The notes under the pieces: model-generated
What the model was told of the DNA's origin: nothing
The model's database searches: none
The model's input: only the letters and a program-made list of their open reading frames with translations
Program-made: the position numbers and the translations under genes
Shown here: piece by piece, positions 6,615-59,645 of the stretch
Position numbering within the stretch: position 1 is the first letter of the stretch
Layout of the letters: every line of letters begins with the position of its first letter
From: an uncultured Flavobacteriaceae bacterium
GTDB taxonomy: Bacteria > Bacteroidota > Bacteroidia > Flavobacteriales > Flavobacteriaceae
Direction of reading: 5' to 3'
DNA length: 64,000 nucleotides
NCBI GenBank assembly: GCA_947501845.1
Contig: CANMXP010000022.1
Location: forward strand, 1-64,000

Positions 6615-6898
6615 ACAAATTCCTTTAGAATTAGTAGGAAAGGAATACTCAAAAAGAGATCAATAATAAATAATAACGAAAACAATTTGAGGGCAGAAAT
6701 ACCTAAGTTTTTGTAAAATATCAGTTTTCGTTTAGCGTGGGTCTCATTTATAAAAAACCACAGAAAAATGACTAATATTAGTTTGGCAATAAGTATGGGT
6801 ATGATACTGTATTTTAAAAATGAAAAAATGATATTTAGCCCAAAAGACCAAAAAATGAAAGGTCTGTAAAAAACGAATATGGAAAATAATTGGTTCAT
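6611..6898 (-). CDS. Small membrane protein paired with ABC ATPase
   Basis: The 95-residue protein has about three hydrophobic segments (residues about 10-30, 32-53 and 68-92) and a short basic loop (THAKRKLIFYKN). It has no recognised domain. It overlaps the ABC ATPase gene by 4 bp (ATGA type), which implies a two-gene operon and a physical complex. It is too short to be a typical six-helix permease. It could be a reduced membrane anchor that oligomerises, or a truncated remnant of a larger permease. Function unknown. Confidence 0.55.
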   Translation of the reverse strand: MNQLFSIFVFYRPFIFWSFGLNIIFSFLKYSIIPILIAKLILVIFLWFFINETHAKRKLIFYKNLGISALKLFSLLFIIDLFLSIPFLLILKEFV

Positions 6899-58012: not shown

Positions 58013-58020
58013 TATATTTG
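58013..58020 (+). promoter_or_regulatory. -7 box of the riboswitch transcript
   Basis: TATATTTG matches TAnnTTTG. The predicted start near 58026 lies just before the riboswitch fold. Confidence 0.45.
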
Positions 58021-58029
58021 AATAATTAT

Positions 58030-58168
58030 TTAAAGGTTTAGCTGAAGCTAGATAATAAGGAATTGTGTTAAAATCACAAGCTGTCGCGCAACTGTAAGTA
58101 ATATAAAATATTACAAGCCAGATACTTCCCTTTAAAAAATGACAAACGTGCTTTCGCGATTTAAAGCC
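58030..58168 (+). ncRNA. Cobalamin (B12) riboswitch
   Basis: The conserved core is unmistakable: AGGAATTGTG..AATCACAA, GCTGTCGCGCAACTGTAAG (the B12-box type CGCAACTGT) and AAGCCAGATACTTCCC (GCCAGAtAC with TTCC closing to GGAA). The stem GCTTT (58150-58154)/AAAGC (58163-58167) presents a CGCG loop. That loop can pair with the CGCG at 58085-58088, the L5-L13 kissing interaction of this RNA class. Adenosyl- or methylcobalamin binding should turn the downstream gene off. Confidence 0.9.
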
Positions 58169-58172
58169 AAGT

Positions 58173-58260
58173 CAAGACAAATGTAATTACCTACAAGCCT
58201 AATTTATTACGTTATTGTTGGTGTCTTGCTTCTTTTTATCCTGCACAAAATATAGAAGCA
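58173..58260 (+). promoter_or_regulatory. Putative riboswitch expression platform
   Basis: CAAGACA (58173-58179) can pair with TGTCTTG (58222-58228). Alternatively TGCTTC (58227-58232) can pair with GAAGCA (58255-58260), directly in front of the ATG. The two helices compete for 58227-58228. This would fit control of translation initiation; no T-run terminator is seen. Confidence 0.4.
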
Positions 58261-58752
58261 ATGAATCAAAAATCACGCACCTTACAAGGCCCCTTAAAAT
58301 GCTGGGATATTTACTCCATGCATTTGGCACAACAAGCTATCAATTTTGATAAAGAAAAGGAGATTGAAATTTTAAAAACGTACCAAGCTAAATTTGATTG
58401 GTTTTTTGATGTCGAAGACCTACTCACCAATAACAAATTTGAAGCTTTGGTACTTACCGATCTTGAACAAGAAATTCAATGGGTAAATAAAGGATTTACA
58501 AAAATTACAGGATATTCCTTTAAATATGCTAAAGGTAAGAAGCCTAATTTTTTACAAGGAGAAAATACATCTCCCGAAACCTTGAATAATATACGCAACT
58601 ATTTAAAAAGAGGGGTTCACTTTAAAGAAAGTATTGTTAATTACAGAAAGAATGGAGAGATGTATCATTGTAGTATTGAAGTCTATCCTTTAAAAGATAG
58701 TAATGATATTACAACACATCTTTTAGCTTTAGAAAAAGAGGTTAGACTTTAA
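58261..58752 (+). CDS. PAS/LOV-like single-domain protein under B12 riboswitch
   Basis: The 163-residue soluble protein has a helical N-terminus (about 1-50) and one PAS domain (about 55-163). The domain pattern, VNKGFTKITGYSFKYAKGKK-PNFLQGENTSPETLNNIRNYLKRG and NYRKNGEMYHCSIEVYPL, is that of LOV-type PAS domains (FLQG, NYRKNG). The flavin-adduct cysteine of GxNCRFLQ is replaced, reading KKPNFLQ, so classical LOV photochemistry is not expected. There is no output domain. Its transcript starts with a cobalamin riboswitch, an unusual target because such switches normally control B12 uptake, synthesis or B12-independent isozymes. Confidence 0.8.
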   Translation: MNQKSRTLQGPLKCWDIYSMHLAQQAINFDKEKEIEILKTYQAKFDWFFDVEDLLTNNKFEALVLTDLEQEIQWVNKGFTKITGYSFKYAKGKKPNFLQGENTSPETLNNIRNYLKRGVHFKESIVNYRKNGEMYHCSIEVYPLKDSNDITTHLLALEKEVRL

Positions 58753-58760
58753 ACTAAAAT

Positions 58761-59645
58761 CTATTTTATTGGCAAATAAAATTCTGTTTTTAATTTATGA
58801 GGTTCTACACGTTCAGGGTTGCTTATGTATTTTTCTCTAGCAACTTCATCACGCAACTCATAATCATTATTTAACAACCAATCGTTAAAAATATAGTCGT
58901 AAACATTGGCAAAATATTCATAACTTCCTTGGTATAAAAATACCGCAAACTTACCGCCTTTAAGTGTTTTAACTCCAATGTCTCCAGTGGCTTTGGCATC
59001 TTTATGTATGATTAAACAAGAATCGTATCTAATTTTGTCCTCGTCGGTTACTTTTGGGTCATCATAAGGCAAACCTATGTGTTCTATACCAGCGGTAAAT
59101 AGTTTTTGTTCTTTTACTTGTTCCCAGAGTTTTTTCCAAGTGCCTGAATAATTTAATGATTGGTAGGCGCCCTGTAGGCGGATATAGATACATTTTTTAT
59201 CTTCTATATCTATAATTTTTGGTTTTTTTATATTTAAATTTTGACTGTGTTCTGTACTGGAAATTGTTTCCATGATCTTCGATTTTTTAATTGTGAATAA
59301 TTTGTTTTTACGATACGCAGTTGGAGATACTCCAAAATGATTTTTAAACTTTTTAGATAAAGATGATGGTGTTTCATAACCAACATTATAAGCAATGCTT
59401 TCCATATCTAAAGTGGTGTAACGAATCATTTTAGCAGCTGTTTCTACACGTGTTCTAGAAATGTATGCTCCAATAGGCTCACCTAAAAGCGCTCTACTAA
59501 TACGATGAAAATGAAACGGTGAAAAATGTGAGATCTCGGCCAGCGTTTTTATATCTATTACACTATCTAAATTGTTATGTATGTATTCTACAATAATATT
59601 TAGTTTTTGTTCATAAAAAGCCTTGTTGGTTTGTTTCAGTGTCAT
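58761..59645 (-). CDS. AraC-family regulator with GyrI-like effector domain
   Basis: The 294-residue protein has two AraC helix-turn-helices at the N-terminus (about 15-110): IDIKTLAEISHFSPFHFHRISRALLGEPIGAYISRTRVE, then AKMIRYTTLDMESIAYNVGYETPSSLSKKFKNHFGVSPTAYRK. A GyrI/AraE_rob-type ligand domain (about 135-294) is marked by GIEHIGLPYDDPKVTDEDKIRYDSCL, GGKFAVFLYQGSYEYFANVYDYIFNDWL and the PERVEPHKLKTEFYLPI ending. This is the SbmC/Rob-like layout linked to sensing cationic or amphipathic drugs. Convergent to the PAS gene with an 8-bp gap. Confidence 0.92.
   Translation of the reverse strand: MTLKQTNKAFYEQKLNIIVEYIHNNLDSVIDIKTLAEISHFSPFHFHRISRALLGEPIGAYISRTRVETAAKMIRYTTLDMESIAYNVGYETPSSLSKKFKNHFGVSPTAYRKNKLFTIKKSKIMETISSTEHSQNLNIKKPKIIDIEDKKCIYIRLQGAYQSLNYSGTWKKLWEQVKEQKLFTAGIEHIGLPYDDPKVTDEDKIRYDSCLIIHKDAKATGDIGVKTLKGGKFAVFLYQGSYEYFANVYDYIFNDWLLNNDYELRDEVAREKYISNPERVEPHKLKTEFYLPIK

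Follow-up and report, generated by a model that had tools for sequence, protein, structure and literature searches.

Towards the end of the window, by which we mean the whole 64,000-nucleotide stretch of DNA that was analysed, a compact cobalamin riboswitch directly precedes the gene for a small LOV-like PAS protein. The features of this locus, with the switch helices as predicted from leader alignment and folding, are as follows.

58013..58020, + strand: -7-like promoter box TATATTTG, just 5′ of the aptamer (TAnnTTTG in 20/25 compact leaders)
58017..58147, + strand: cobalamin riboswitch aptamer, compact, without the long P6 extension (RF00174, 58.1 bits, E 8e-12)
58085..58088, + strand: L5 CGCG of the L5-L13 kissing pair (pairs with 58155-58158 in 25/25 leaders)
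58150..58167, + strand: P13 hairpin GCTTT-CGCGATTT-AAAGC, the loop of which would dock on L5 (98.3% of cells paired, 25 leaders)
58163..58177, + strand: putative anti-sequestor 5′ strand (AAAG, AAG, CAAGA), overlapping the P13 3′ arm (minimum free energy, MFE, fold of 58138-58275)
58224..58235, + strand: putative anti-sequestor 3′ strand TCTTGCTTCTTT, common to the sequestor (pairing across leaders and MFE fold)
58226..58261, + strand: putative start-codon sequestor hairpin TTGCTTCT...AGAAGCAA (83.9% of cells paired)
58261..58752, + strand: gene for the 163-aa LOV-like PAS protein (PAS_9 E 4e-13; dN/dS 0.12-0.32)
58761-59645, − strand: convergent AraC/GyrI-like regulator gene, 8 nt beyond the PAS stop

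The PAS gene is therefore the sole gene before a convergent one, as the first-pass annotation of this DNA had described it. That annotation also read the leader as a full cobalamin-riboswitch core and proposed a scan with RF00174; in our covariance-model scan the match spans the full model (1-189), far above the gathering cut-off of 31.5 bits, and it is the single Rfam gathering match in the 64 kb. Because only 9 nt stand in place of 62 model positions in the RF00174 alignment, the long P6 peripheral extension is lacking, and we take the aptamer to be of the compact, Cbl-II-like subclass. Our own compact model, R1, scores the window aptamer at 151.8 bits, the window being among its 20 training rows (together with 17 of the 80 loci surveyed below, L147, and L148), and compact loci outside the training set (L051, L053, L058, L065) reach 113-152 bits. 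The compact aptamers of L064, L065, and L147 were missed by Rfam locus scans and became visible through alignment and R1; compact cobalamin aptamers may thus be under-counted in databases. The box upstream of the aptamer, TATATTTG, is one that we assign to the Bacteroidota TAnnTTTG promoter type, and the compact riboswitch probably has its own promoter. Above the cut-off, the window genome (G000) carries one further cobalamin riboswitch; it is followed by a gene for a btuB-like receptor and by a DUF5074-like one, and genes resembling cobU/T/S and btuFCD stand in divergent orientation (named by eye and from BLAST against L104).

The PAS protein is predicted to have a LOV fold, consisting of an N-terminal helix (15-45) and a PAS/LOV core (62-160; AlphaFold2, mean pLDDT 90.5). 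Pfam finds only PAS_9 and PAS_4 in it; the best NCBIfam match, the YtvA blue-light receptor family, scores 62 bits, far below the 250-bit cut-off, and among nine such matches the general PAS domain model TIGR00229 alone passes. Since Pfam and NCBIfam give PAS domains and no enzyme replacing a B12 enzyme, the protein is not a B12-independent isozyme. The fold search gave 573 PDB matches at E ≤ 0.001, and every one of the 50 listed is either a LOV domain or an engineered LOV protein, with several at 0.9-1.4 Å; CagFbFP, phototropins, and YtvA head the sequence search, which includes one non-LOV Eag-channel PAS (4hp4) among the 60 matches listed. The photoactive LOV Cys sits in a GRNCRFLQ motif, and the usual LOV flavin contacts are Arg, Gln, Asn, Asn, and Gln. 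In our alignment (A3, from which five of 80 loci with partial matches were left out: L087, L091, L102, L118, L123), the adduct-Cys position is Pro95, with Pro in 75 of 76 sequences and Ala in one, a count biased by the use of Pro in one of the two search patterns for picking relatives. Gln99, Asn127, Tyr135, and Cys137 are invariant (76/76), Glu158 is present in all 74 sequences with a letter at that position, and the position after the adduct-Cys site is variable, with Arg in 6/76. Two flavin contacts are thus kept throughout (Gln99, Asn127), while Cys137 stands for the second Asn and Glu158 for the last Gln. Comparison with the LOV photoreceptors (YtvA, aureochrome, and the short LOV protein DsLOV) and the engineered CagFbFP shows a common LOV fold, FLQG and NYRK motifs, and N-terminal helix, whereas the adduct Cys, the second Asn, the last Gln, and the conserved Arg are not retained. 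By its residues the protein is LOV-like, yet it is no LOV photoreceptor by the defining one, in line with the first-pass description of a LOV-like PAS protein with a replaced adduct Cys. The unlinked relative L022 has a Cys one place earlier in the alignment, within a stretch lacking the FLQG motif, and its equivalence is doubtful. Riboswitch linkage as a marker of Cys loss was ruled out, as the unlinked L012, L015, L016, and L018 have Pro too. The gene itself is under purifying selection across the 21 pairs compared.

These residues bear on the possibility that the product is a B12-gated light or flavin-redox sensor, signalling through flavin without the usual adduct or via the invariant Cys137, and made only when B12 is scarce. 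Such a role would accord with the LOV character of the fold matches and top sequence matches and with the invariance of Gln99, Asn127, and Cys137, but we regard it as unlikely given the Pro at the adduct site, the rarity of Arg, and the second Asn and Gln replaced by Cys and Glu, as well as the Eag-channel match and the absence of an output domain.

Conservation of the arrangement was assessed by scanning contigs with the PAS alignment and retaining the best 80 of 324 relatives, picked by protein alone, with riboswitch positions taken from RF00174 searches of 79/80 genomes (all but that of L083), locus scans, leader alignment, sequence, and R1 over all 80 loci. A cobalamin riboswitch lies upstream on the same strand in 43/80 loci, against 0.056 expected by chance within 3.5 kb. 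No linked riboswitch was found in 34/80, five of which have at most 3.0 kb upstream (L062, ~0.56 kb; L087, L095, L111, and L113, 1.9-3.0 kb), and three (L099, L112, L116) end too near the gene to assess. R1 over all 80 loci gave no further riboswitches, and the calls of none are still not absolute, since Rfam locus scans missed some compact aptamers. Overlaps lying downstream or on the opposite strand (L054, L069, L071, L080, L097, L116, L120) and the overlap in L061 were taken as other contigs; rescans of the overlap sites in L061, L071, L080, L097, L116, and L120 revealed no riboswitch there; for L054 and L069 the rescan was with R1. The linked loci fall into five architectures, with gene identities from Pfam on representatives and BLAST clusters:

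riboswitch-PAS: 26 loci, 21 compact and 5 longer (L072, L073, L075, L092, L120)
riboswitch-metE-PAS: 12 loci, of which L083, L117, and L122 also have a CWC gene, and L117 and L122 also a thioesterase gene in between
riboswitch-btuB-DUF5074-PAS: 3 loci (L093, L104, L105)
riboswitch-thioesterase-PAS: 1 locus (L128)
riboswitch-CWC/DUF5522-PAS: 1 locus (L107)

Linkage in L064 and L065 comes from alignment, sequence, and R1, with no Rfam gathering match, and L107 is counted as linked from an R1 match (29.6 bits, E 0.017) at the same place as an RF00174 genome-search match of 47.6 bits. The L128 PAS protein groups among Flavobacteriaceae on the tree, its record naming a proteobacterial genus. On the sequence evidence, the presence and family of the riboswitch, the conserved adjacency, the repeated placement of PAS genes behind other cobalamin riboswitches, and the missing adduct Cys are firm; a wider B12 regulon includes the PAS gene, a conserved target of cobalamin riboswitches. 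We consider it likely that the compact riboswitch controls translation of the LOV-like PAS protein as part of a B12-scarcity regulon of many Bacteroidota.

The genes that travel with the PAS gene hint at what this protein may do. The metE cluster has 12 genes in the 80 loci, every one of them situated between a riboswitch and the PAS gene. All 15 genes of the 4HBT thioesterase cluster (15/80 loci) adjoin the PAS gene on the same strand, and 11 belong to riboswitch units; a thioesterase gene of this kind recurs beside PAS in L145 (68.5% identical) and, by eye, in L043. In three Zunongwangia loci (L077, L081, L085) the PAS and 4HBT thioesterase genes adjoin with no riboswitch in the locus, so the pair exists outside B12 control too. 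A Cys_rich_CWC gene sits between cobalamin riboswitch and PAS gene in L083, L117, L122, and L107 (in L107 with DUF5522). The PAS protein might be a sensory adaptor, binding a ligand or acting in redox sensing and, being without an output domain, working via a partner; it could come into play once B12-dependent metabolism fails, alongside MetE, BtuB, and the 4HBT thioesterase, the last of which may free CoA from acyl-CoAs blocked at the B12-dependent methylmalonyl-CoA mutase. A bolder version, which strikes us as decidedly unlikely, is that a Cys-less LOV-like flavoprotein using Cys137 and Glu158, made in the absence of cobalamin (perhaps of methyl- or hydroxocobalamin), replaces B12-dependent light or redox sensing together with the thioesterase and CWC proteins. 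If true, Bacteroidota would possess a sensory branch of B12 starvation parallel to the MetE-like and ribonucleotide-reductase-like stand-ins for B12 enzymes.

The metE units also raise the question of whether the PAS protein is an accessory of MetE, or of MetH reactivation, rather than a sensor. The metE-PAS units in 12/80 loci and in L144 are consistent with the former, and the occurrence of MetH in all 28 genomes tested leaves room for the latter. However, no metE was found in 10 genomes whose PAS gene is riboswitch-linked (G002, G008, G010, G028, G439, G447, G524, G558, G402, G336), so MetE cannot be the common partner, and a dedicated MetE partnership was rejected. In G000 itself metE lies elsewhere (L150, 4825-7757); an Lrp/AsnC-like gene diverges from it, and the 12 kb read there contains no cobalamin riboswitch. 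An accessory role of either kind is, in our estimation, quite improbable.

The compact riboswitch also serves other genes. A whole-genome search of 30 genomes with R1, with 109 first-look candidates scored per genome, gave matches in 10, five of them on PAS genes (G000, G002, G439, G061, G077) and five away from them (G199, G087, G091, G094, G523). Compact riboswitches precede two class I ribonucleotide reductase-like subunit genes in Zunongwangia (L152-L154, by eye) and epimerase-like and MetE-like genes in G199 (L155; names by eye except for the metE BLAST matches), and a 148-nt riboswitch precedes metE in G350 (L156; 62.8% identical to that of L109 by BLAST). These targets rule out the compact riboswitch as a PAS-only element and show that the PAS gene has its control element in common with B12-replacement genes. 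Elsewhere, a cobalamin riboswitch lies 5′ of nrdG-nrdD-like genes (by eye) in L139 (G004) and L149 (G522), which we take to encode the anaerobic, B12-independent ribonucleotide reductase.

How the riboswitch could act on the PAS gene is suggested by the leader. The L5-L13 kissing pair CGCG/CGCG and the alternative helices reaching the ATG, both noted in the first-pass annotation, were recovered by leader pairing and the MFE fold. Across 25 aligned compact leaders (A5), the kissing pair shows two single-side G-U changes and is otherwise invariant, no P13 pair is changed on both sides, and three of the eight sequestor pairs have changes on both sides. Jointly, L5-L13, P13, and the ATG hairpin have 91.9% of cells paired compared with 38-47% when slid, and the 8-pair core of the anti-sequestor forms in 82.3% of cells compared with 30-56%. 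The MFE structure of 58138-58275 is the anti-sequestor prolonged into the P13 3′ arm, in a fold no more stable than shuffles (z -0.22). The number of paired cells in the leader helices beats most shuffles (reached by 15/500 and 3/500), and the covariation score of the 25 leaders does not exceed them (132/500 and 103/500); the switch model therefore draws on conserved pairing and mutual exclusion rather than on strong covariation. With corrinoid bound, L5 would dock on the P13 loop and P13 would remain closed, which would break the anti-sequestor, let the ATG hairpin close, and turn translation off. Without ligand, the P13 3′ arm would join the anti-sequestor, leaving the ATG free and allowing the PAS protein to accumulate. 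Most likely, then, the PAS protein accumulates when B12 is scarce, a direction that we infer and that fits the leader. Action through a short upstream ORF was rejected, as the sole such frame seen by eye in the leader is an ATG-TAA near 58182, missing from several relatives.

The opposite direction of control would make the riboswitch an activator and the PAS protein a product of B12-replete cells. Genes for MetE and BtuB are normally repressed by B12. The placement of PAS genes in riboswitch units with both, along with a sequestor that abuts the ATG, renders activation highly improbable, even though an activating corrinoid riboswitch has been described (PMC10653944). The closer likeness of the repressive scheme is to env8, in which, according to PMC10907184, the P13 hairpin of the expression platform docks on L5 upon ligand binding and represses translation. 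The window leader is proposed to resemble it in having P13-L5 docking as the repressive step and to differ in that the RBS of env8 lies within the P13 loop, whereas P13 of the window ends 93 nt 5′ of the ATG and would act via the anti-sequestor and sequestor.

Within the genus Flavivirga, the PAS gene was found at strong E-values in 9/12 genomes, the window's own included, and the riboswitch lies directly 5′ of it in all nine. In the three genomes without the gene (G004, G007, G009), all RF00174 matches are at least 196 nt long, and the R1 compact model finds none. With nine genomes holding the pair and three holding neither member, the compact riboswitch and the PAS gene are present or absent together in the genus. 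The aldo-keto reductase gene upstream varies (whole, a remnant, absent, or with another gene in between), and the pair is retained. That the PAS gene is a bystander left behind a riboswitch once belonging to a since deleted metE or btuB, with recent btuB loss the case that the first-pass annotation had named against itself, is very unlikely in this clade and scarcely tenable in general: although Echinicola, which groups with the Flavivirga-Algibacter clade (support 84/94, drawn open), has metE between riboswitch and PAS gene, such that the ancestral unit may have held metE, the compact riboswitch stays directly on the PAS gene in 9/9 Flavivirga genomes and 21/80 wider loci (six of the 21, L050-L055, being the Flavivirga genomes G002, G011, G008, G006, G005, and G010 counted in both sets) despite changing upstream neighbours, start-codon pairing is kept across leaders, the gene is selectively constrained, and the family is linked in four other architectures. 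Overall, the central claim made from the single window stands: the LOV-like PAS gene is preceded, and most likely controlled, by a cobalamin riboswitch. The other riboswitch architectures could not be seen from there.

Cobalamin riboswitches are known for controlling B12 supply and B12-independent enzymes, and the PAS gene is a new target class of this known riboswitch. The product of Mycobacterium tuberculosis ppe2 is presumably unrelated to the PAS protein and without a PAS domain. The ppe2 B12 riboswitch resembles the present case in having a target of uncertain function (PMC11260477). In PMC3766115, targets fall into four categories (B12 biosynthesis, B12 or precursor transport, cobalt transport, and isozymes), and the sole Bacteroidetes group in Table 2 is Bacteroidaceae. 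Relative to the RF00174 regulons presented there, our locus is alike in aptamer family, L5-L13 pairing, occurrence in the same genomes, and the presence of PAS genes in metE and btuB units, and it differs in that the target is small, of sensory type, and outside all four categories. A cobalamin riboswitch 5′ of a TonB-dependent transporter gene is reported for Flavobacterium psychrophilum (PMC9723704). Among the papers listed in our literature searches, mostly outside subscription journals, none connects a PAS or LOV gene to a cobalamin riboswitch as far as the text was accessible, and those containing both "PAS domain" and "cobalamin riboswitch" make no link between the two. A conserved sensory-type target in five architectures across Bacteroidota would mean an undescribed signalling or accessory arm of the B12-scarcity response, and the PAS protein seems to be a component of that response which has so far escaped notice. 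The riboswitch link also offers a way into an uncharacterised family of solo PAS proteins, and it can be tested directly in marine Flavivirga that are in culture.

The link is patchy in the wider family. A survey of 159 Flavobacteriaceae genomes (about one per genus; profile matches at E ≤ 1e-33) yielded 43 matches in 40 genomes, nine of the 43 being riboswitch-linked, with calls from one search for 36 PAS carriers and from separate scans for G000, G002, G028, and G031. Among strong matches (E < 1e-45), 8/26 are linked (G000, G002, G028, G031, G439, G447, G524, G558). The ninth linked case is G522, which has a PAS protein of a distant type (26% identical to that of the window) in a riboswitch-metE-PAS unit, a type found beside a pyruvate-kinase-like gene. 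Among 11 further class-sample genomes that have small frames, two are linked, G336 (the L120 genome) and G402. A tree of 83 proteins requires a minimum of 15 changes between linked and unlinked, 9 for the solo architecture, 9 for metE, and 2 for btuB; if only well-supported branches count, fewer are forced (solo 4, metE 6, btuB 2, none 7), with L107 entered as unlinked and, for the figure of 7, three unassessed rows counted as other. Architecture labels are more clustered on the tree than in shuffles. The changes point to repeated gain or loss of linkage, which a functional tie of B12 status to the PAS protein would produce, and the patchiness means that the PAS family must also work outside B12 control. 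In L045, L046, L047, and L144, a distant solo PAS subfamily adjoins a conserved block beginning with a pyruvate-kinase-like gene, and riboswitch-metE precedes the PAS gene in L144 only. In L082 and L083, a TPP riboswitch (6616-6721; 54.9 bits, cut-off 54.3) lies just 3′ of the PAS gene.
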